Shown here: positions 2 to 15,156 of the stretch, piece after piece
Layout of the letters: each line of letters begins with the position of its first letter
Numbering within the stretch: the stretch's first letter is position 1
Origin: Pseudomonadota bacterium
Lineage (GTDB): Bacteria; Desulfobacterota; Binatia; UBA9968
DNA length: 64,000 bases
Assembly: GCA_021324155.1 (NCBI GenBank)
Contig: JAJPJQ010000019.1
Coordinates: 1 to 64,000 of the forward strand
Direction: 5' to 3'
Position numbers and translations under genes: made by a program
The notes under the pieces: model-generated
Seen by the model: the letters and a program-made list of their open reading frames with translations, nothing else
Database searches by the model: none
What the model was told of the DNA's origin: nothing

Positions 2-1330
2 GGCGAATGCCGGCGCGAGAGCGTCGGCACGATGTGCCCGAGCTACCGCGCGACGCGCGAGGAGATGCACTCGACGCGCGGCCGCGCGCATCTGCTCTTC
101 GAGATGCTGCGCGGCAATCCGCTGCGAGACGGCTGGCGCGATGCCGGCGTGCGCGAGGCGCTCGACCTCTGCCTCGCATGCAAGGGCTGCAAGGGCGAAT
201 GTCCGGTGCAGGTCGACATGGCGACGTACAAGGCCGAGTTTCTTTCGCACTATTACGAGAAGCGGCTGCGCCCGCGGCACGCCTATTCGATGGGCTTGAT
301 TTACTGGTGGGCGCGCCTGGCCTCGCTCGCGCCGCGCGCGGTCAACTTTTTTACGCACGCGCCGCTCGCCAGCCGCGCGCTCAAATTCTTCGGCGGCATC
401 GCGGAGGAGCGCGATGTGCCCATGTTCGCGCCCGAGACTTTCACGCGCTGGTTTCGCCGGCGCGCGCCGCGAAACATGGGCAATGCCAAGGTGATGCTCT
501 GGCCCGACACTTTCAACAACCATTTTTATCCGGAGGTCTGCCGTGCGGCGGTCGAAGTCCTCGAAGCCGCCGGCTTTCGCGTCGTCATCCCGCAAGTGTC
601 GCTCTGCTGCGGGCGGCCGCTCTACGATTTCGGCATGCTCGACACGGCCAAGCGACTGCTCCGGCGCATTCTCGATACGCTCGCGCCGGAGATCGAGGCC
701 GACGTGCCGGTTATCGGACTCGAGCCGAGCTGCGTGGCGGTTTTTCGCGACGAGATGTTGAATTTATTTCCCCACGACGAGGACGCCAAGCGCCTCGCCG
801 CGAACTGCTTTCTGCTGCCGGAGTTTCTCGAGACGATGATCGACGGCTACAAACCCTCCCAGCTCGGTCGTAAGGCGCTCGTCCACGGTCATTGCCATCA
901 AAAAGCGATCATGGGCATGGCACATGAGAAAAGTCTTTTTTCAAAGCTCGGCCTCGACTGCGAGCTGCTCGACTCCGGCTGCTGCGGTATGGCGGGATCG
1001 TTCGGCTTCGAAGCCGGCCACTACGATGTATCGATGAAGATCGGCGAGCAATTGCTGCTGCCCGCCGTGCGGCGCGCGTCCAAGGACGCGCTCGTCGTGG
1101 CCGACGGCTTCAGCTGCCGCGAGCAGGTGCGGCATGCTATCGGCCGCAAGCCGCTGCATTCGGCTGAACTGTTGCAAATGGCGCTTCGGCAGACCGCCGG
1201 CCGGACAACGGAGCGCGTCAGTGTTAATAACGGGCGCAACGGACGGCACGTGCGCGCGGCACTGGTGATCGGCGCGACCGCGGTCGCCTCCGCCTGGATG
1301 CTCGCGCGGAGAGCGGACCATGAAATATAA
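2..1330 (+). CDS. Fe-S oxidoreductase, C-terminal part of a FAD-linked oxidase/GlpC-like protein (5' partial)
   Basis: The frame is open from base 2, so the gene begins upstream. The visible part is the Fe-S electron-transfer module found at the end of D-lactate/glycolate-type FAD oxidases. The tail of a first 4Fe-4S motif (GTMCPSY) is followed by a second, CLACKGCKGECP, near base 170-202. Two cysteine-rich CCG repeats follow (SLCCGRP near 600 and SGCCGMAGSFGFE near 980), which bind Fe-S or heterodisulfide-like clusters. The oxidase domain itself is not in the window, so the substrate cannot be told. The extreme C-terminus is unusual: after a basic linker there is one hydrophobic helix (VRAALVIGATAVASAWML) and a charged end, suggesting a membrane tail-anchor. 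The last 11 bases overlap the next gene. Confidence 0.85.
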   Translation, partial: GECRRESVGTMCPSYRATREEMHSTRGRAHLLFEMLRGNPLRDGWRDAGVREALDLCLACKGCKGECPVQVDMATYKAEFLSHYYEKRLRPRHAYSMGLIYWWARLASLAPRAVNFFTHAPLASRALKFFGGIAEERDVPMFAPETFTRWFRRRAPRNMGNAKVMLWPDTFNNHFYPEVCRAAVEVLEAAGFRVVIPQVSLCCGRPLYDFGMLDTAKRLLRRILDTLAPEIEADVPVIGLEPSCVAVFRDEMLNLFPHDEDAKRLAANCFLLPEFLETMIDGYKPSQLGRKALVHGHCHQKAIMGMAHEKSLFSKLGLDCELLDSGCCGMAGSFGFEAGHYDVSMKIGEQLLLPAVRRASKDALVVADGFSCREQVRHAIGRKPLHSAELLQMALRQTAGRTTERVSVNNGRNGRHVRAALVIGATAVASAWMLARRADHEI

Positions 1331-1757
1331 AGCGCTCGGCGGGGCGAGTGAGAAAACATACGCGCTGATTTTCGACAAGGGCGACGAAGCGGTGGAGGGA
1401 CTTATCGGGTTCGCGAAAGAGCGCCGACTCGGCGGGAGTCATCTAACGGCGATCGGCGCATTCAGCGACGCGACGCTCGGCTTTTTCGATCGCGACAAAA
1501 AGGATTATCGTAAGATCCCCATCCGCGAGCAGGTCGAGGTCCTTTCGCTGGTGGGCGATATCGCGCTCAAAGACGGCGCGCCGCAGCTGCACGCGCACGT
1601 GGTCGTCGGCAAAGCCGACGGCACCGCGCACGGCGGCCATCTGCTCGAAGCGCATGTCTGGCCCACGCTCGAAGTTATCGTGACGGAATCCCCGACGCAC
1701 CTGCGGCGCAAAGTCGATGAAGAAACGGGGCTCGCGCTGATCGATGTCGACCATTAA
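1320..1757 (+). CDS. PPC/DUF296 domain protein
   Basis: This 145-residue protein matches the whole PPC (plant and prokaryote conserved, DUF296) fold. The N-terminus resembles other members (EKTYALIFDKGDE), followed by GSHLTAIGAF and a metal-site-like LHAHVVVGKADGTAHGGHLLEAHVW stretch, quoted here only in part: LHAHVVVG and HGGHLLEAHV carry the histidines. In plants PPC is linked to an AT-hook; the free-standing bacterial form has no settled function and is described as DNA-binding or as a small trimeric domain. No AT-hook is present. It overlaps the upstream oxidoreductase by 11 bases, so the two are probably co-transcribed and translationally coupled. Confidence 0.85.
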   Translation: MKYKALGGASEKTYALIFDKGDEAVEGLIGFAKERRLGGSHLTAIGAFSDATLGFFDRDKKDYRKIPIREQVEVLSLVGDIALKDGAPQLHAHVVVGKADGTAHGGHLLEAHVWPTLEVIVTESPTHLRRKVDEETGLALIDVDH

Positions 1758-1798
1758 GCGTGCAGACCCGCGCAAACCATTGTCGGAGACAAACTGCT

Positions 1799-2797
1799 AT
1801 GCACCATCCGGAGACCGTCGTCATTACCGGCGCCTCGGCAGGCGTCGGCCGCGCGACCGTGCGCGAATTCGCAAGGCGCCGAGCACATATCGGATTGATC
1901 GCCCGCGGCGAAGAGCGGCTCGCGGCGGCGAAAAATGAAATCGAAGACGCCGGCGGCAAGGCGCTGACGTTTTCCGTCGACGTCGCCGACGCCGAAGCGG
2001 TCGAAGCCGCGGCCGGCGAGGTCGAGGCCAAGCTCGGGCCGATCGACATCTGGATCAACAACGCCATGACGTCGATTTTCTCGCCGGTCAAAGAAATGCA
2101 GCCCGATGAGTTCAAGCGCGTGACGGAGGTCACCTATCTCGGCGTCGTTTACGGCACGCTCGCGGCGCTCAAGCGCATGCTGCCGCGCGACCGCGGCGTC
2201 ATTGTGGAAGTGGGCTCCGCGCTGGCGTACCGCGGTATTCCGCTGCAAGCCGCCTATTGCGGCGCGAAGCATGCGATCCAGGGCTTCGTCGATTCGCTGC
2301 GCTGCGAATTATTGCACGACGCGAGCCGCGTCCGCGTCACGATGGTGCAGATGCCGGCGCTGAATACGCCGCAATTTTCCTGGGTGAAGAGCCGGCTGCC
2401 GCACAAGGCGCAGCCGGTGCCGCCGATCTTTCAGCCAGAAGTCGCGGCCGAAGCGATCTATTGGGCCGCGCATCATGATCGACCGGAAGTGTACGTGGGC
2501 TGGCCGACGGTCGAGGCGATCGTCGGCAACAAGATCGCGCCGCGAATCGCCGACGAATACCTCGCGCGCGTCGGCTACAAATCGCAGCAGACCGATGCTC
2601 CCGAAGATAAGGACCGTCCCGATAATTTGTGGCGTCCGGTTCGAGGCGATTTTGCGGCGCACGGCGCCTTCGATGCCCGCGCGCGGAACCATTCCATCCA
2701 GCTCTGGGCGACGACCCACCGCGGCTGGCTTGCGGCGGGGGCCCTCGCGCTTGCCGGAGCGGCGTACATGGCCCTGTCGCGCAACGGCCGCCCCTGA
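1799..2797 (+). CDS. short-chain dehydrogenase/reductase with C-terminal membrane tail
   Basis: This 332-residue SDR has an N-terminal cofactor motif TGASAGVG (residues about 9-16), NNA at the end of strand 4, and the catalytic serine/tyrosine/lysine set (VEVGSALAYRG, then YCGAKHA, YxxxK). It should use NAD(P)H on an unknown alcohol or ketone. The classical fold ends near residue 255. A roughly 75-residue extension then closes with one hydrophobic helix (WLAAGALALAGAAYMALS), which would anchor the C-terminus in the membrane. The ATG at 1799 is preferred over an upstream GTG at 1760 because GGAGA lies about 10 bases before it. Confidence 0.85.
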   Translation: MHHPETVVITGASAGVGRATVREFARRRAHIGLIARGEERLAAAKNEIEDAGGKALTFSVDVADAEAVEAAAGEVEAKLGPIDIWINNAMTSIFSPVKEMQPDEFKRVTEVTYLGVVYGTLAALKRMLPRDRGVIVEVGSALAYRGIPLQAAYCGAKHAIQGFVDSLRCELLHDASRVRVTMVQMPALNTPQFSWVKSRLPHKAQPVPPIFQPEVAAEAIYWAAHHDRPEVYVGWPTVEAIVGNKIAPRIADEYLARVGYKSQQTDAPEDKDRPDNLWRPVRGDFAAHGAFDARARNHSIQLWATTHRGWLAAGALALAGAAYMALSRNGRP

Positions 2798-2852
2798 CTG
2801 CTCGCCAAGTTAATCCTCAGATTATCTTCCCAAAACCGACCAAATTGCGTTG

Positions 2853-2881
2853 ATATCGCCGGTATATCGTACAGAATATCG
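2853..2881. repeat. three ATATCG repeats about one helical turn apart
   Basis: ATATCG occurs at 2853-2858, 2864-2869 and 2876-2881, spaced 11 and 12 bases, just upstream of the predicted selenoprotein gene. Sites on one DNA face at helical-turn spacing are typical of cooperative regulator binding. This is an inference; no regulator is identified. Confidence 0.3.
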
Positions 2882-2914
2882 TTAACGCGAATTTGCTCTC
2901 ATCGAGGGGGAAAA

Positions 2915-4318
2915 ATGGCGGCTGAACGATCTTACGATGCGATTATCATCGGCGCCGGACAGGCGGCAAAACCGCTCTCGATGGTTTTAGCCAAGGCGGG
3001 ACTCAAGATGGCTCTTGTCGAAGAGAAGCACGTGGGAGGCGCCTGCGTCAATTATGGTTGAACGCCGACTAAAACCATGGCGGCGAGCGCGCGCGTCGCC
3101 CATCTTGCCCGGCGGGCAAGCGAGTATGGCGTAGAGACGGGTCGCGTCGAAGTGAATCTGGCTAAGGTGAGGGAGCGCAAGCAGCGCATCGTCGAACGCT
3201 TCCGCAACGGGTCGGAGAAGCTTCTACAAGCCACCGCGAATCTGGATGTCATTTACGGGAAGGCGAGTTTTATCGATGCGAGGACGGTTAAAGTCGACGC
3301 CGCAGGCGCCGAAGCGCTCCATCTTCGGGCTGAAAAAATCCTTCTCAACACCGGCGCGAGGCCGGTCATCCCTCCGATCGACGGACTCAGTCGAGTGCCG
3401 TTTTTGGATTCGACGTCGATCATGGAGCTCGATGCGCTGCCGGAGCATCTCCTGGTCTTGGGCGGCGGATACATCGCTATCGAGTTCGGGCAAATGTTTC
3501 GGCATTACGGCAGCCGGGTGACCATGTTCGAGCGCGGCGACCAGCTCTTGGCGCGCGAGGACGGCGACGTGGCCGAGGAGGTCATTAGAATCCTGAGGGA
3601 AGACGGAATCGATGTGCGACTAAAGACGACGCCGACCCGTGTCGAGACGACCGATCGAGGCGGGATTCGACTGACGCTCGGCGGCGGGATGCTCGAAGGT
3701 TCTCATCTGCTGATCGCTGCGGGACGCCGTCCGAATACGGATCATTTGAACCTCGACGGCGCCGGCGTGGAGGTGGACGAGAATGGCTATGTAAAAATCA
3801 ACGAGCGACTCGAAACTAACGTGCCGGGCATTTATGCGATGGGTGATATCAAACCGGGTCCCGCTTTCACGCACATCTCCTACGATGATTTTCGCATCCT
3901 CCGGGCAAATCTTTTGCGAAAGGGCCATGTAGGCATCGCCGGCCGGCCGGTGCCGTACACGATTTTCATGAATCCGCAACTCGGCCGCGTGGGCCTGACG
4001 GAAAGAGAGGCGCGCGCGCAGGGCCGCTCGATTCGCGTCGCCAAACTGCCGATGGCCAATGTCGCCCATGCCATCGAGTTCGGCGAAACGCGCGGATTCA
4101 TGAAGGCGATCGTCGACGCGAACACGAATCAGATTTTAGGCTGCGCGATCCTCGGCATGGAAGGCGGGGAAGTCATGCCGGTGTTGCAGGTCGCGATGAT
4201 GGGGAAGCTGCCTTACCCCGTTATTCGCGACGGCATCTTTGCCCATCCCACGCTGGCTGAGTCTTTGAACAATCTCTTCATGGCGATGGATGCCCACGGA
4301 TTGGGAGAAATGAAGTAA
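2915..4318 (+). CDS. predicted selenocysteine-containing FAD pyridine-nucleotide disulfide oxidoreductase (MerA/RclA/lipoamide dehydrogenase-like)
   Basis: Reading from ATG 2915 (Shine-Dalgarno GAGGGGG at 2904-2910) gives 467 residues if the single in-frame TGA at 3059-3061 is read through. The FAD motif is GAGQAAKP (from residue 13). The redox motif reads GGACVNYG-(TGA)-TPTK, where class I enzymes have GGxCxNxGCxPTK, so the TGA replaces exactly the second, flavin-proximal cysteine: C44-x4-U49. The rest is intact: NAD domain [13 protein letters not shown], second FAD motif GIYAMGDI, and the dimer-interface base pair H444/E449 in HPTLAE. No HMA mercury domain is present, so MerA activity is not implied. 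Family members pass electrons from NAD(P)H through FAD to the redox pair; the substrate is unknown. Selenocysteine insertion is inferred. A nonsense mutation or a TGC/TGT misread is the alternative, and selABCD lie outside the window. Confidence 0.75.
3077..3103 (+). promoter_or_regulatory. candidate bacterial SECIS hairpin
   Basis: Bases 3077-3085 pair with 3094-3103 (C3101 bulged, one G-U pair), closing an 8-base loop AGCGCGCG at 3086-3093. The loop begins 24 bases after the TGA and has G as its second base. Bacterial SECIS elements are known to need an apical loop about 16-37 bases after UGA with a G among the first two loop bases. The region is GC-rich, so chance pairing is possible. Confidence 0.55.
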
Positions 4319-4399
4319 AGTTAGCGTGTTGACTTCGCGAGCGGCTTGTATCAAGAACCTGCCAGTCGGGGATGTGCCAAAAATCCTAGGAGGTGGGGG

Positions 4400-5419
4400 A
4401 TGAAACCAAAGCGCTTCGCGCGCCGGTATTCCGTTCTTCTCGCAATATTAGGTCTCGTTCTCCTCGCCGCATCGCCGCTCTGTGCGGCAGACAAGATCCG
4501 CGCCGCCTCCGGCGGCTTCGGTACGGCGATCAACGCGCTCGTGCCGGGAGCGTACCATCAGAAAGTTTTTCAGAAATACGGCCTCGACGTCGAGTACATC
4601 GCGCTCGACAGCGGCACGCTCGGCATGCAGACGCTGCTCGCGAACGAGATCCAGGTGCTGTTCACGACCGGCGCGCTGCCGGTGACCTCCAATCTCCAGG
4701 GCGGCGACGTGTCGATCATCGCCGGCGGCATCAACTTTTTTCCTTTCAAGTTGATCGTGCGGCCGGAGATCAAGAATCCGGCGGACCTGAAAGGCAAATC
4801 GGTTGCGATCAGCCGCTTCGGCTCGGCGTCGGATTTCGCCGCGGTCGCGGCGCTGGAGAAATTCGGCGTCAACGCGAAGCAGGTGACGATGCTCCAGATC
4901 GGCGGCAACCCAAGCCGGCTCGCGGCACTGACCGGTGGCTCGGTGCAGGCGACGGTCTTCAGCGAACCGCACGCGAGCATAGCGGTGAGAAAATTCGGCA
5001 TGCGTGAGATTTACGATCTCGCCGACAGCGGCATCCCGTTTCCGCAGAACTGCTTCATGGTGCGCCGGAGTTATCTGGCGGAGAACCGGCCGAAGGTGGT
5101 GAACTTCATGAAGGCGGTCATCGAGGGCCTCTACGTGCTGAAGCGCGACAAGCCTGCGGCGATCCGGGTGATCAAGCGCTACCTGCGCATCGACGAGGAC
5201 GAGATGGCGGCGATCGGCTACGATTATTATCTCGTGCAGCACGGCGACGACATTCTCACGCTGCCGGATCGTAAAGGTCTCGAGATGGTGATTGCCGACA
5301 CAGCCAAGACGAATCCGAAGGCGAAAGGACAGACGCCGGAGTCGCTGAAGCTTCTCGATTCGAGTGTACTCGACGAGATCAAGAAGAGCGGCTTTGTCGA
5401 GAAGGTGAAACGGTCGTAA
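4400..5419 (+). CDS. NMT1/THI5-like ABC transporter substrate-binding protein
   Basis: The ATG at 4400 sits behind a near-perfect AGGAGGTG (4388-4395). The 339-residue product has a basic, hydrophobic signal peptide ending near SPLCAADK, then the periplasmic binding fold of the SsuA/TauA/NMT1 group (AINALVPGAYHQKVF, KNPADLKGKSVAISRFGSAS, GNPSRLAALTGG, FSEPHASIAVRKFG). Such proteins deliver nitrate/sulfonate/pyrimidine-like or other small organic ligands to ABC importers. No permease or ATPase gene is next to it, so it is an orphan here and its ligand cannot be predicted. The cysteine near the cleavage site (LCAAD) could make it a lipoprotein, but the box is not convincing. Confidence 0.85.
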   Translation: MKPKRFARRYSVLLAILGLVLLAASPLCAADKIRAASGGFGTAINALVPGAYHQKVFQKYGLDVEYIALDSGTLGMQTLLANEIQVLFTTGALPVTSNLQGGDVSIIAGGINFFPFKLIVRPEIKNPADLKGKSVAISRFGSASDFAAVAALEKFGVNAKQVTMLQIGGNPSRLAALTGGSVQATVFSEPHASIAVRKFGMREIYDLADSGIPFPQNCFMVRRSYLAENRPKVVNFMKAVIEGLYVLKRDKPAAIRVIKRYLRIDEDEMAAIGYDYYLVQHGDDILTLPDRKGLEMVIADTAKTNPKAKGQTPESLKLLDSSVLDEIKKSGFVEKVKRS

Positions 5420-5471
5420 AAAGCAGGTATAAATAGAAGGCAAAAGTTAACTTGCGAGGCCCGCTAGGACC

Positions 5472-6644
5472 ATGTCTTTCTGGAATGAAATCCCGAGGCC
5501 GATCGTCGGCCTTTCGCCGATGGACGGCGTCACCGACGCGTCGTTTCGCTACATCACGGCGACGGTCGGCCGGCCGGACGTCATTCTCACGGAATTCGTC
5601 AGCGTCGACACCGCCGCGTTCGCGCCGGAGTCGCTCCTGCGGGATTTCACGTACTCGGAAGTGGAGCGGCCGATCGCCGCGCAGATTTACGGACACACGC
5701 CGGAGACGTTCTACAAAGTCGCCCACATCGTGTGCGAGCTCGGCTTCGACGGGCTCGACATCAACATGGGCTGCCCGGCGAAGAAGGTGGCCGCGAAGGG
5801 GAGCGGCGCGGGTCTGATTCAGACTCCGGCGCTCGCGCGTGAAATCATTCGCGCCGCGCGGCAGGGAATTCGCGACTGGGCGGCGGGGCAGACGCTGGCG
5901 GCCATCGGCATCGACGGGGAATTTGTCGCGCGCATCAGGAACGCCAACCGCATGCGCTGCGGCGCCGAGGCGCCCGCCGAGCGGCGCGAGATTCCGGTGT
6001 CGGTCAAGACGCGCATCGGCTACGAGGCGGTGGTGGTCGAAGACTGGATCAAAAATTTGCTCGAAGAGCGGCCGGCGGTGATCTCGATCCACGGCCGCAC
6101 GCTGATGCAGCAGTACAGCGGCAGCGCCGATTGGAGCGCGATCGCGCGCGCGGTCGAGGCCGCGCGCGGCTCGGCGACGCTAATCCTCGGCAACGGCGAC
6201 CTGAGGAGCCTCGCCGACGTCTACCGGCGCGTCACGGAGACGGGAGTCGACGGCGTGCTGCTCGGCCGCGCGGCTCAAGGCAATCCATGGATTTTTCGAG
6301 GCAAGCTCGAACTTAAGGACTCCGTTAAGTCGGTCTGCGCGGACTCGGTCCCGCTTCCGCCAAACGTCGCTATCGAGGAGCGCTTCAGCGTTTTGCTGGA
6401 CCATTGCCGTCATTTCGCCGCGTGGCGCGAGCCGCACGTTTTCGTCGCGATGCGAAAGCAGCTCGCGTCGTATATCCGCGCGGTGCCGCGCGCCGCGGAC
6501 ATGCGCTATCGGATGGTGCACGTGAACGTGCTCGAAGACGTCGAGCGCTGCCTCGAGGATTACACCGCCGCGCTCGCGTCCGAGTCGTTTCCGATCCGCG
6601 CCTCGTGGAATTCACCGCCGGCGGCGGCGCTGCGATGCGGTTGA
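5472..6644 (+). CDS. dus: tRNA-dihydrouridine synthase
   Basis: This 390-residue flavoprotein of the Dus family reduces uridine to dihydrouridine in tRNA with FMN and NADPH. The FMN barrel starts with LSPMDGVTDASFR, the catalytic acid is C101 in DINMGCPAKK, and later FMN-phosphate motifs are visible (SIHGRTLMQQYSG, LILGNGDL, GVLLGRAAQGNPWIF). Compared with ordinary DusA/B/C (about 310-350 residues) there is an insertion of about 40 residues after the catalytic loop (residues 135-180). The subfamily is therefore left open. The last 10 bases overlap the Maf gene, suggesting one transcript. Confidence 0.9.
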   Translation: MSFWNEIPRPIVGLSPMDGVTDASFRYITATVGRPDVILTEFVSVDTAAFAPESLLRDFTYSEVERPIAAQIYGHTPETFYKVAHIVCELGFDGLDINMGCPAKKVAAKGSGAGLIQTPALAREIIRAARQGIRDWAAGQTLAAIGIDGEFVARIRNANRMRCGAEAPAERREIPVSVKTRIGYEAVVVEDWIKNLLEERPAVISIHGRTLMQQYSGSADWSAIARAVEAARGSATLILGNGDLRSLADVYRRVTETGVDGVLLGRAAQGNPWIFRGKLELKDSVKSVCADSVPLPPNVAIEERFSVLLDHCRHFAAWREPHVFVAMRKQLASYIRAVPRAADMRYRMVHVNVLEDVERCLEDYTAALASESFPIRASWNSPPAAALRCG

Positions 6645-7270: not shown

Positions 7271-8887
7271 TTAACGCGCGTCGCGCCGTCCGTCGGGCGC
7301 GTTCCTCTGCGCACTACGGTCCTCGCCGCCACGGCTGCGCGAGACTTGCGCGCCGCCGCGGCGCTCGTTCCGTTGATTCTGCCGAAACTCCTGCTGCGGG
7401 CGGTTGTTCACGGGGCGCTCGCGGGCCGCGTCGCGGCCGCGAAACGCGCGATTGTCGGCTCCCCGCTGGCGCTCGAAGGAGCGGTTCTCAAATCTCTGAT
7501 TCGACCGGTTCTCGAGAGACTGCCGGCGGTTCGCTTCGAACTGCTGGCGGTTTTGCTCGCGCAGCTGCTCCGCGCTCCGATCGAAACCTTGCGGCCGGGT
7601 ATCGCGGAATTGCGAACGATTCTCAAACTCGCGGCCGCGATTTTCCTGTCGCGAGCGATTGTCGAAATCGCGCCGGCGCTGCTCTTGGAGCCGCGCCGCG
7701 CTGCTGTCGCGACCCTGCCGCAGCCGCTCGTCGCGCTGGAAGTTTCCGTCCCGCCGCCCTTCGAAATTCCGGTCGCCGCGCCGATTGTCGAATGCGCGGT
7801 TGTTGTCGGAGCGGCCGTCGCGCCGATTGTTGTCGAATCCTCGATTGTCGAAACGGCGCCCGTTATCGAAACGCCGATCGTCGCCGCGCCGGAAGTTCCG
7901 GTTTGCGATTATACGGTCGTTCCGGCGCGCGAAGTTGTTGAAGTTCGAGTTGCGATGAATTGTATTGAACCGATTCAGATTCTCCACGCGAACGCTGCGG
8001 CGCACGATGTCGCGGTTCACACGAATACTGCGGAAGCGGTCGTTCACGTAGACATTGTTGATGCGGACGAACGGGCGGCTGCGCTCGACCCAGCGCGGGC
8101 CGCGCCATCCATGGTAAAAAATGCGATGGCCGCGCCAATCCCAATCGCAGTTGAGCCACGGCCCGATCGGAAATGCCGGGCCGAAGACGAACGTAGCGTG
8201 GCGGAAGAAGACGACGTCCGGCGCGTAGTCGGGAACGAAAATAAATTGTGGCTGAATCGGCTCGATCGCGATGAAACCACCGGACGGAACCACGTCCCAG
8301 TACTCGTTCGTCACCAGATTGCCGGCATTGCGCGCCATGAAGCGCAAATGCTGCACGGCCGCCGAGACGTCAGTCGGCTGCTCAACATAAGCCTGACCGA
8401 GCGCGGTCGTCCAATCGATGCGGTCGGCCATCATGAAGAGCACTTTGGGATAATGCGCGACGGCCTTGACGCTGACGTCCCATGGCTGCGCGTCGACGCC
8501 GTACGGGTCGTTGTAGGCGCGCATCCAGCGTGCGGCGTCGTCGATCTGGTCGGCGAAGGTCGCCGCGACGAGAATCTGCGCGAGCAGCGGGTCGGGATAA
8601 AGTGCGACCGGCGCGAGCAGGTTCTCGAGCTCGTCCGGCGATATGCGGTAATCGGCATAACCCGGCGTTGGGCCAGGATCACCGCCGTAAGGCGTAGCGG
8701 GAGCACCGCGGTAATCGGGATACGCGTCACCAGGCGGCGGCGCAGAATAATCACCATATGGCTCGGGAGGCCCGTATTCTTGTGCATCGGCCGCAGAACT
8801 TCCTAAGCGGCCCAGCATCGTCGCAGGCGGCGCAAAAAGAAAGGCGACAGCAAGGGTAATCGTCAGAAATTTTCTGCCTTTGTTCAT
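7271..8887 (-). CDS. DUF3300 secreted protein with Arg/Asn/Phe/Asp-rich tail
   Basis: This 538-residue protein has a signal peptide (hydrophobic core LTITLAVAFLFAPPA), a Pro/Gly/Tyr-rich stretch (residues 35-80), then a DUF3300 domain: ISPDELENLLAPVALYPDPLLAQIL, of which APVALYPDPLLAQ is the hallmark, QPWDVSVKAVAHYPKVL, and FVPDYAPDVVF. From about residue 300 onward it is low-complexity, dominated by RRFDNR, FENRS and QR repeats, with strong positive charge. DUF3300 proteins are secreted or periplasmic and of unknown function. The basic tail suggests binding to polyanions such as LPS, nucleic acid or polysaccharide; that is inference. A sigma-70 type promoter is visible at 8942-8969. Confidence 0.85.
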   Translation of the reverse strand: MNKGRKFLTITLAVAFLFAPPATMLGRLGSSAADAQEYGPPEPYGDYSAPPPGDAYPDYRGAPATPYGGDPGPTPGYADYRISPDELENLLAPVALYPDPLLAQILVAATFADQIDDAARWMRAYNDPYGVDAQPWDVSVKAVAHYPKVLFMMADRIDWTTALGQAYVEQPTDVSAAVQHLRFMARNAGNLVTNEYWDVVPSGGFIAIEPIQPQFIFVPDYAPDVVFFRHATFVFGPAFPIGPWLNCDWDWRGHRIFYHGWRGPRWVERSRPFVRINNVYVNDRFRSIRVNRDIVRRSVRVENLNRFNTIHRNSNFNNFARRNDRIIANRNFRRGDDRRFDNGRRFDNRGFDNNRRDGRSDNNRAFDNRRGDRNFEGRRDGNFQRDERLRQGRDSSAARLQEQRRRDFDNRSRQENRGREFENRSQFRDTRPQGFDRSAEQLREQNRQQFEANRRQSLENRSNQRFENRSFERQRGADNRAFRGRDAARERPVNNRPQQEFRQNQRNERRGGAQVSRSRGGEDRSAQRNAPDGRRDAR

Positions 8888-8941
8888 TTGTTCTTCCTAG
8901 TTTGTAACGAGACTCGGGTCTTCACCCGGCTACAACTACTC

Positions 8942-8969
8942 ACATTAGAATTAGACGAGCGTCTGTCAA
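8942..8969 (-). promoter_or_regulatory. sigma-70 type promoter for the DUF3300 gene
   Basis: On the minus strand TTGACA (8969-8964) is followed after 16 bases by TAATGT (8947-8942). The start would fall near 8935, leaving a leader of about 48 bases that can form a CGGGT-CTTC-ACCCG hairpin. Confidence 0.55.
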
Positions 8970-8981
8970 AAAGGGTATAGT
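8952..8981 (+). promoter_or_regulatory. promoter for the gamma-glutamylcyclotransferase gene
   Basis: TAGACG (8952-8957), 18 bases, TATAGT (8976-8981). Transcription would begin about 8988, four bases before ATG 8992, so the transcript is almost leaderless. The box covers the upstream GTG at 8980 and argues against that start. It overlaps the divergent DUF3300 promoter. Confidence 0.45.
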
Positions 8982-8991
8982 GCGGCCTGAA

Positions 8992-9432
8992 ATGCTTTAC
9001 TTCGCTTATGGATCCAACATGCATTGGGGTCAGATGAAGCAGCGCTGCGCGTCGGCGCGGTTCGTCGCCGTGGCGCGCCTGCCGGAGCATCGGCTTGCGA
9101 TCACACGGAAGTCCCGGCGACGTCTCTGCGGCACAGCTGACGTCGTGCCCGAGGCCGATTCGGAGGTCTGGGGAATCGTTTACGATATCGCCGGGGAAGA
9201 CCTAGCGCTCCTCGACGGTTTCGAAGACGGTTACCGGAGGGAAAAGAAAGCGGTGCTGGTTGCGGACGACGCGCAGTCGGTCGAGGCCTGGATTTACGTC
9301 GCCGAGAAAGAAGACTCCCCGCCGCGGCCGAACGCGCTTTACAAGCGCCTGATGCTCGAAGGCGCAAAACATTGGGGGCTGCCCGAGACATACCTCGCAT
9401 ATCTGGACGGGATCGAAGCAGCCGAGGACTGA
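8992..9432 (+). CDS. gamma-glutamylcyclotransferase-like (GGCT/AIG2) protein
   Basis: The 146-residue product starts MLYFAYGSNM, the substrate-binding YGSN loop of GGCT-like enzymes, and carries a later VWGIVYDI and a glutamate (LLDGFEDGYRR) at the place of the general base. These enzymes form 5-oxoproline from gamma-glutamyl dipeptides or trim gamma-glutamylamines. An in-frame GTG at 8980 would add MRPE but lies inside the apparent -10 box, so ATG 8992 is preferred. It is divergent from the DUF3300 gene. Confidence 0.85.
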   Translation: MLYFAYGSNMHWGQMKQRCASARFVAVARLPEHRLAITRKSRRRLCGTADVVPEADSEVWGIVYDIAGEDLALLDGFEDGYRREKKAVLVADDAQSVEAWIYVAEKEDSPPRPNALYKRLMLEGAKHWGLPETYLAYLDGIEAAED

Positions 9433-9622
9433 CGGGCGATCATTTTCCGGCACGTTGCTCAAATTCGCTCATTTAGGCATTTTTTCAATCTTCCGACGGC
9501 GGTTCCGGCCTTTGGCACGGCCTAGAGGGCGTCGCTCGCGCGCGCTCCATTTCATTCGTCGCCTGCCGCTTTTCGGGCATGCAAACTTTTGTCGCGAGTT
9601 CCATTTTCTCGTCTTTTGACAC

Positions 9623-9638
9623 TGGCACCGCTCTTGCT
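9623..9638 (+). promoter_or_regulatory. sigma-54 (RpoN) promoter upstream of the NERD gene
   Basis: TGGCAC (9623-9628), five bases, TTGCT (9634-9638) is a full match to the -24/-12 consensus with correct GG-to-GC spacing. Transcription would begin near 9649, giving a 35-base leader that contains the AAGGAGAG ribosome site of the gene at 9684. Expression would need an AAA+ enhancer-binding activator; one is encoded at 37737. Confidence 0.7.
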
Positions 9639-9683
9639 CCATCCGTTTCGCGGTAATCACGCGACCAAAAGGAGAGCAAACCT

Positions 9684-12495: not shown

Positions 12496-15156
12496 ATGGC
12501 CGCTAAAAATTCCAAAACATCGGTGAAATCTGCGCCTTTATCTACGCGTAGCGACAAACGGAAAATCTTGCTGCTCGACGGGCATTCGCTCGCGTACCGC
12601 GCGTTTTTCGCGTTGCCCGACACGCTCGTCACTTCTTCGGGGCAGGTGACAAATGCGGTTTACGGCTTCACGGCGATGCTCATCAAACTATTCGGCGACG
12701 AACGGCCGGACGCCGTCGTAGTGACTTTCGACAAGGGCGCGCCGCAATTCCGTCTCGACCGCTACGCCCAATACAAGGCCGGCCGTGCGGAGACGCCGGA
12801 CAAGTTTCGCCAGCAGCTGCCGCTCATCCGCGAAGTCTTGAGCGCGCTGAAAATACCCATGTTCGAGCTCGCGGGCTACGAGGCCGACGATCTGCTGGCG
12901 ACGCTCGTCAAGCATTGCGGCGCATCAGATTGCGAGATCATCATCGTCACCGGCGACCGCGACATTCTTCAGCTCGTCCGCGACGGCGTTTCCGTCATCA
13001 TGACGCGCCGCGGCATCTCCGACATCATCCGCTACAACGCCGCGACCGTGTTGGAGCGGTACGGCGTCGGACCCGAGAAATGGATCGATTTCGTCGCGCT
13101 CAAGGGGGAAAGCTCGGACAATCTTCCCGGCGTTCCCGGAGTCGGCGACAAAACGGCGGCGCAGCTCATCCAGAAGTACGGCGATATAGAGCAGGTGATC
13201 GCGCACGCTGACGAGCTCACGCCGAAGCTGGGCGCGGCCATCAAAGCGCACGCCGACCAGGTTAGAATCAACAAGGATCTTGGGCGGCTGCTCGACGACG
13301 TGCCCCTCGACGTCGATCCGGCGAAGATCGCGCTTCAGCCGTGGGACGAGGAAGAAGTGCGAAAACTTTTTACTTCGCTCGAGTTTCGCACACTGCACGA
13401 GAGGCTGAAGGAGCTGAAGATCCACGCCGCCGCGGCTCCGACGACATCGCTCGAACTCGGGGACCTCCGCGACCTGACCGCGGAGTCGGATCTGCGCGCC
13501 GGCGACCTCGCGTTCGCCTGGGGCGAAAAATGGCTGGCGATCGCCGACGCCACGGGCGGAGCCCGCGTGCTGCCTTTTGTCGAGGCATCGCAACGGCTGG
13601 CAAAGCTCCTGGCCGATCCGGCGCGGCGGAAAACCGCACACGATGCCAAGCCGTTATTTCGCGCGGCGATCGCCGCGGGCGCCGATCTTCAAGGCCTTCA
13701 TCTTGATACGAAAATCGCGGCGTATCTGATCGAGCCCGGCGCCGCGGCAGGCTATCCGCTGAAAGACGTCGCGGCGCGCTACCTCGGCGTGTCGCTCGAA
13801 GAGCCATCCGATCCGGTGGCGGGTGAGCAGGGGGCGCTCGCCTTCGGCGCAGACGATAAGCGCACCGTCGCGCGCGAGGCCGTCGCCGTGCGCGCGCTCG
13901 CGCCCCTCTTGGAGGAAAGGCTCCGCGCGCAGGGTGTTTGGCAGCTGGCCGCGGAGCTGGAGTTTCCGCTCATCAGCGTGCTCGCGCGCATGGAGCACCA
14001 CGGCATACTCATCGACCGAAAGTATTTGGAGCAACTCGACGCCGACTTCGGCGCCAAGATGATGGCGCTTGAGCGGGCCGTGCAGGAGCATGCGGGTGAG
14101 CAGTTCAACGTCAACTCGCAGCCGCAGCTCCAGCGGATTCTCTTCGAGAAGCTCGCGCTGCCGAAGACCAAGCGCATCAAGACCGGTTATTCCACCGACG
14201 CGGCCGAGCTCGAAAAGCTCGCCGGAGCGCACGCGATCGTCGACGCGCTGCTCGAATACCGCGAGGTCTCAAAGCTCAAGAACGGCTTCACCGAGATGCT
14301 GCTCGCACTCGTCGATTCGCGCACCAGCCGCATTCATACGACATACGATCAAACCAAAGCCGCGACCGGCAGGCTCGCGTCGAACGCGCCCAACCTGCAA
14401 AACATACCGATTCGCGGCGAGATGGGCCGCCGCATCCGCCGCGCGTTTGTCGCGCCGCCCGGCCACATTCTTCTATCGGCGGACTATTCGCAGATCGAGC
14501 TGCGCGTGCTCGCGCATTTGTCGGAGGACGCGAGCTTTTGTCGGGCCTTCGATGAAGGCCATGACTTTCATGTGTCCATCGCGGCGCAGGTGCACGGCGT
14601 CGTGCCGGAATCGGTCACGCCCGATATGCGCAGCCGCGTCAAGCAATTCTCCTACGGTATCGCATATGGCATGTCGGCCTACGGCGTCTCGCAGCGGCTC
14701 GGCGTCGAGATGGAGGAGGCGGCGAGCTTCATCGAGAGTTATTACGCTCAATTCCCCAGAGTTCGCGAGTACCTCGCGGCGCAGGTGGAGCGCGCGAAAA
14801 TAGACGGTTTTACGACGACGATGTTCGGCCGGCGGCGCTATCTGCCGGAGCTGCATTCCGCGAATTTCCGCCTGCGCGCGCTCGGCGAGCGCATGGCGCT
14901 CAACACGCCGATTCAGGGGACGGCGGCGGACATCATCAAGCGCGCCATGATCGATGTGGACACTGCGCTGCGGAGCGACCCGATCGCCAAGATGCTGCTC
15001 ACCGTGCATGACGAGCTCGTCTTCGAGATTCCCGAAGAGAAGCTGGAGCGCGCGCGGGCGCTGATCGAAAAAGCGATGGTCAACGCCGCAGAGCTGCGCT
15101 GCGGGCTTGCCGTAGATGTGCACACCGGCGAGAATTGGGCCGATGCGCACGCATAA
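12496..15156 (+). CDS. polA: DNA polymerase I
   Basis: This 886-residue enzyme fills gaps and removes RNA primers during replication and repair. The 5' nuclease domain (about residues 20-290) has LLLDGHSLAYRAFFALP, EADDLLATL, TGDRDILQLV and GVPGVGDKTA. The polymerase domain (about 500-880) has motif A LLSADYSQIELR, motif B (RVKQFSYGIAYG) and motif C TVHDELVFE. The middle 3'-5' exonuclease-like domain has lost its metal ligands: the DxE of motif I reads LAFAWGEKW, the motif II aspartate is absent (AHDAKPLF) and motif III reads VAREAVAV. Proofreading is therefore predicted to be absent, as in Taq polymerase. No ribosome site precedes ATG 12496. Confidence 0.95.
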   Translation: MAAKNSKTSVKSAPLSTRSDKRKILLLDGHSLAYRAFFALPDTLVTSSGQVTNAVYGFTAMLIKLFGDERPDAVVVTFDKGAPQFRLDRYAQYKAGRAETPDKFRQQLPLIREVLSALKIPMFELAGYEADDLLATLVKHCGASDCEIIIVTGDRDILQLVRDGVSVIMTRRGISDIIRYNAATVLERYGVGPEKWIDFVALKGESSDNLPGVPGVGDKTAAQLIQKYGDIEQVIAHADELTPKLGAAIKAHADQVRINKDLGRLLDDVPLDVDPAKIALQPWDEEEVRKLFTSLEFRTLHERLKELKIHAAAAPTTSLELGDLRDLTAESDLRAGDLAFAWGEKWLAIADATGGARVLPFVEASQRLAKLLADPARRKTAHDAKPLFRAAIAAGADLQGLHLDTKIAAYLIEPGAAAGYPLKDVAARYLGVSLEEPSDPVAGEQGALAFGADDKRTVAREAVAVRALAPLLEERLRAQGVWQLAAELEFPLISVLARMEHHGILIDRKYLEQLDADFGAKMMALERAVQEHAGEQFNVNSQPQLQRILFEKLALPKTKRIKTGYSTDAAELEKLAGAHAIVDALLEYREVSKLKNGFTEMLLALVDSRTSRIHTTYDQTKAATGRLASNAPNLQNIPIRGEMGRRIRRAFVAPPGHILLSADYSQIELRVLAHLSEDASFCRAFDEGHDFHVSIAAQVHGVVPESVTPDMRSRVKQFSYGIAYGMSAYGVSQRLGVEMEEAASFIESYYAQFPRVREYLAAQVERAKIDGFTTTMFGRRRYLPELHSANFRLRALGERMALNTPIQGTAADIIKRAMIDVDTALRSDPIAKMLLTVHDELVFEIPEEKLERARALIEKAMVNAAELRCGLAVDVHTGENWADAHA

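Follow-up and report, generated by a model that had tools for sequence, protein, structure and literature searches.

An in-frame TGA at the flavin-side cysteine position of a class I disulfide reductase in a genome with selenocysteine machinery

When a TGA codon stands exactly where an enzyme family carries a catalytic cysteine, does it encode selenocysteine (Sec) or does it end the gene? The question is raised by a frame at positions 2915-4318 of the 64,000-nucleotide stretch of bacterial DNA analysed here (the window), which had been predicted to encode a selenoprotein. In this study we compare the locus with its homologues and with the Sec genes of its own genome. We lean towards an ordinary stop, that is a nonsense change or an assembly variant; the weight given to each reading is a judgement and was not computed.

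The reductase frame and its relatives

Translated through the TGA, the frame extends to a TAA at 4316-4318 and gives 467 residues with a single internal stop, as the original prediction had described. The features of the locus are:

2904-2910, plus strand: purine-rich, Shine-Dalgarno-like GAGGGGG 5' of the ATG at 2915, read from the sequence
2915-4318, plus strand: frame of a class I FAD/NAD disulfide reductase, 467 codons, one internal TGA
2951-2959, plus strand: FAD-binding G13-A-G15, columns G13 and G15 invariant
3044-3046, plus strand: Cys44 (TGC), first redox cysteine, interchange position, invariant column
3059-3061, plus strand: in-frame TGA at codon 49, where all 31 covering homologues encode the second (flavin-side, charge-transfer) Cys
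3079-3100, plus strand: GC-rich 7-bp hairpin, loop AGCGCGCG, fitting a permissive SECIS description only, no GU loop
3461-3484, plus strand: NAD(P)-binding GGGYIAIE, with G183-G185, Y186 and E190 invariant
4244-4261, plus strand: HPTLAE, with H444, P445 and E449 invariant

Invariance of the motif columns was judged in an alignment of 19, and the motifs on both sides of the TGA are indeed intact, as had been claimed. HPTLAE presumably provides the catalytic His-Glu at the dimer interface. Cys44 of the CxxxxC pair is present and the TGA lies five codons past it, leaving either a Cys-Sec pair or a truncation. The warning that a gene finder starting at the ATG at 3077 would lose the FAD site and the redox pair is also borne out, since the 413-codon frame opened there lacks both.

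Pyr_redox_2, Pyr_redox and Pyr_redox_dim all score above cut-off in one chain, which thus carries the FAD, NAD(P) and dimerisation domains of a class I flavoprotein disulfide reductase. The best NCBIfam model is NF004992 (FAD-containing oxidoreductase; 523.6 bits over residues 4-458, cut-off 629). An AlphaFold model (mean pLDDT 87.3) was matched by Foldseek to 6kod (TMt 0.92, 39% identity), 8uub (0.93) and 8ajj (0.92); residue 49 was written as Cys for the domain matches, the model and the Foldseek run. A sequence search of the PDB gave RclA (6kgy, E 9e-100). The nearest solved relatives are RclA from E. coli, Har from S. pneumoniae and MerA from S. aureus, reductases associated with hypothiocyanite, reactive chlorine or Cu(II); they share the same CxxxxC site, whereas here a TGA replaces the second Cys. 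The chain scores below the curated cut-offs for RclA (437.6 versus 740) and for the hypothiocyanous acid reductase MerA (380.5 versus 650). We assign the frame to the RclA / hypothiocyanite reductase / MerA-like group of class I flavoprotein disulfide reductases. Identity as a mercuric reductase was rejected (TIGR02053, 352.5 bits against a cut-off of 454.45); mercuric reductases carry a C-terminal Cys pair, and Cys44 and Cys410 are the only Cys of this frame.

Selenocysteine decoding in the source genome

The source genome (4.8 Mb, 53 contigs, 98.13% complete, 3.26% contaminated) contains every sel gene that the original prediction had proposed to look for. Contig C16 carries selA (602.9 bits), selB (412.3) and selD (391.6) together, with a tRNA-Sec (74.8 bits, anticodon TCA) at its end; this is the gene set of a bacterium that makes selenoproteins. 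Moreover, selD itself (L010, minus strand) has an in-frame TGA in AAGUAAK, as have two formate dehydrogenases (fdhA1 and fdhA2) in UHSSSVP. Judged by its genes, the source genome looks like a genuine Sec user. Among ten homologue genomes selA is above cut-off in eight, a count that has no matched base rate, and the regions around selA in eight homologue genomes yielded no selD match, no FdhA-like Sec motif and no added SECIS.

In mammalian thioredoxin reductase, also a class I flavin reductase, Sec sits in the C-terminal tail and the N-terminal pair is Cys-Cys, whereas the candidate Sec described here belongs to the N-terminal pair. No class I reductase with CxxxxU appears in the accessible part of PMC13188914, whose Table 1, according to its text, covers 119 families or subfamilies. 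Three entries seen there come closest: CoA-disulfide reductase (UGxP), type III sulfide quinone reductase (HxxU) and a metal-binding 'putative mercuric reductase' (UxxU). The first two are likewise FAD/NAD flavoproteins with Sec but represent other subfamilies with other motifs. A literature search combining selenocysteine and CxxxxU returned no match.

The TGA codon and its readings

A search of genome contigs retrieved 38 homologue loci, the best with 65% identity; seven stop short of the motif, and in all 31 that cover codon 49 the codon is TGC or TGT. The prediction that the TGA replaces the flavin-proximal Cys is thus confirmed, and the UGA aligns with a conserved Cys, as in selenoproteins. 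It had further been argued that a chance nonsense change would rarely hit this codon. Among the 4203 single-base changes of the frame (codon 49 taken as Cys), 122 give a stop, 24 of them TGA, and one falls at codon 49; the figure of 1/122 stands, but the case was selected for that position. Furthermore, the Cys-type homologue at L041 has an in-frame TGA of its own at an ordinary, non-Cys position (locus position ~783, query position 90; one of 35 aligned), so lone TGAs do arise in such assemblies. In the window, ten other long frames were read through TGA only (at least 400 codons); five have a family match and none of these has its TGA inside the matched stretch, and interruptions are therefore not obviously common here. 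Scanning codon usage for signs of interrupted genes told us little, the reductase TGA ranking 34 of 323.

No Sec-bearing homologue was found in another genome within limited samples (the 31 covering loci, 395 + 3 genomes and 96 relatives). Across 395 genomes of the phylum the TGA motif occurs only in the source genome itself, and a reversed control pattern also matched once; it is absent from three genomes of the class to which the L024 genome belongs. In 96 other relatives, six have a homologue at E ≤ 1e-80, and their seven matches (44-47% identity) have no internal stop. A tblastn search of plasmids gave no reductase match of at least 60% identity, with matches of lower identity in 1606 records. 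In the family of the source genome the reductase gene looks rare, and it may be an acquired one.

The hairpins downstream of the UGA were compared with those of five known Sec genes, fdhA1, fdhA2 and selD of the source genome and the selD genes of L039 and L044, all of which have GU within the first three loop positions. With a three-base loop the stems are 7 bp in fdhA1, 9 bp in fdhA2 and 8 bp in selD; read as pentaloops they are GGUCU with 6 bp, AGUUU with 8 bp and AGUAU with 7 bp, respectively, and the L039 and L044 hairpins have 9 bp (8 with GGUGU). Among 10240 background positions of the source genome, a GU-loop stem of at least 7 bp is attained at 4.7% and one of at least 6 bp at 9.0%. 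At the reductase TGA the best such stem is 4 bp, a level reached by 27% of the background, and a SECIS hairpin like those of the genome's own Sec genes is thus absent. The comparison set is five hairpins, two of them near-identical, from which the GU criterion was derived; this criterion also leans on E. coli SECIS biology. Four wider hairpin settings (2334 positions each) placed the reductase at 34-68% of the background and the known genes at 0.4-15%, the best hairpin of L039 and L044 in these settings being different from their GU-loop one. The missing GU-loop hairpin is the main evidence against Sec at codon 49.

Other measures of the region were less telling. Folding energy does not discriminate, the reductase (z 0.75) and selD both lying near the middle of the background, and Rfam gave no match in the window at gathering scores, nor in 2900-3300 at E up to 10. 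The hairpin at 3079-3100, with G in its first two loop positions, came from a permissive scan that was discarded as a SECIS test because it is not selective: stems of this length are attained at 14% of 1622 background positions, and selD itself reaches only 4 bp.

The selD hairpin of the source genome and those of L039 and L044 lie at the same distance from the UGA (~+32) and have an R-GU-N-U loop, but the stem sequence of the former differs from that of the latter two. The same distance with a different stem supports a real element, which distant lineages share and which is likely the SECIS of selD.

Signs of decay in the reductase are slight. It departs from four otherwise invariant columns, while 35 other sequences depart at 0-3, and residue 43 is Ala, in a column with Thr or Ser in 34 of the others and a gap in one; both are weak signs, since the reductase is itself one of the more isolated sequences. 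Compared with eight homologues, it has an identity of 0.52-0.77 before the TGA and 0.56-0.64 after it, the residues directly past the TGA are near the family consensus, and the frame contains no second stop or frameshift.

The TGA is, in our estimate, probably read as an ordinary stop. This is favoured by the absent GU-loop hairpin, by the lack of a TGA copy elsewhere in the samples searched, by the random TGA of L041 and by the column departures; against it stand the 1/122 position, the Sec machinery, the other TGA genes of known Sec families, the five other read-through frames with an uninterrupted family match, the small hairpin set behind the GU criterion and the otherwise unbroken frame. 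Translation from the ATG at 2915 would then end after 48 residues, without redox pair, NAD domain or dimer domain, and the gene would represent a copy inactivated not long ago, a strain variant or an error of the assembly consensus. Without the hairpin, SelB of this organism would be inactive at the reductase UGA, and the stop would be recent. If so, finding a TGA in place of a catalytic Cys does not prove a selenoprotein even where the genome decodes Sec, and candidates can be sorted better once their SECIS region is set beside those of Sec genes from the same genome.

A true selenoprotein is unlikely but deserves consideration. SelB would insert Sec at UGA 49 by means of an atypical SECIS, giving a Cys44-Sec49 selenenylsulfide, and electrons would pass from NAD(P)H to FAD, to Sec49 (charge-transfer), to Cys44 and on to the substrate. 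The original prediction keeps its sel genes and its conserved Cys column, and the genome's machinery, its three other TGA genes of known Sec families, the exact placement on the catalytic Cys and the intact remaining motifs all speak for it, as do the permissive hairpin and the related two-dinucleotide-domain flavoproteins listed with Sec in the part of PMC13188914 at hand. It is weakened by the lack of a GU-loop hairpin, present in all five known Sec genes checked, by the failure to find a second TGA homologue in the samples searched, and by the near-consensus residues directly past the TGA. SECIS elements are known to be diverse, according to the accessible part of PMC12013277. Were Sec inserted, the enzyme would define a new selenoprotein subfamily of a known kind, carrying Sec in the charge-transfer position. 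It would then offer a direct way to test charge transfer between flavin and selenol in a classic class of enzymes, and it would mean that gene finders overlook enzymes of this type.

Passage of the UGA without Sec, by near-cognate suppression or by reinitiation at the ATG at 3077 to give a 413-residue protein, is very improbable, because the reinitiation frame, open as it is, would yield a product that lacks the two redox residues as well as FAD Gly13/Gly15, we see nothing like a Shine-Dalgarno sequence ahead of 3077, and nothing was found in favour of suppression.

Selenoneine genes and genomic surroundings

The source genome has adjoining SenB and SenA genes on contig C20 (L078:7322-8272 and 8263-9651, minus strand), both above curated cut-offs; judging by these genes, selenoneine is probably made alongside selenoproteins in this organism.

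Several reductase neighbourhoods suggest a connection with the redox chemistry of ergothioneine or selenoneine, to be taken as a lead only. The nearest homologue belongs to a Nitrospinae genome (L024/L080), where the reductase lies ~1.7 kb from SenB, followed by SenA, on the opposite strand (L080:6863-12338). At L039:1752-5855 and L044:1764-6058, a Sec-type selD (GUAAK), a Cys-type reductase and EgtB stand in a row. Of ten homologue genomes, eight encode a homologue of EgtB or SenA that scores 239 bits or more, three of them above the SenA cut-off. An ABC transporter, of the betaine type where tested (L050), precedes the reductase at five Anaerolineaceae loci.

A specific co-occurrence of the reductase with selenoneine genes is not supported. 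SenB exceeds its cut-off in 6 of 31 homologue genomes, and it is commoner in the controls (26 of 47), which come mostly from the source genome's own family and include six that hold a distant reductase homologue; co-occurrence therefore gives no support for a specific link. The fuller proposal, a new Sec subfamily of class I reductases with Sec at the flavin-side position, an atypical SECIS and a SenA/SenB host, perhaps recycling oxidised selenoneine or ergothioneine, is put forward as a doubtful one.

Five neighbours surround the reductase in the window:

32-1330: Cys-rich (CCG) domain protein
1320-1757: PCC-domain protein
1760-2797: short-chain dehydrogenase
4397-5416: NMT1/SsuA-type binding protein
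5472-6644: Dus protein

No obvious partner for the reductase was seen among these five (32-6644). Further along, ARAGORN reported a 90-nt tRNA-Asp with anticodon ATC at 14364-14453, which is probably spurious, Rfam at gathering scores being empty across the window. At L063, from the same family, a 47% identical reductase is followed by a binding protein of the same cluster as that at 4397-5416.
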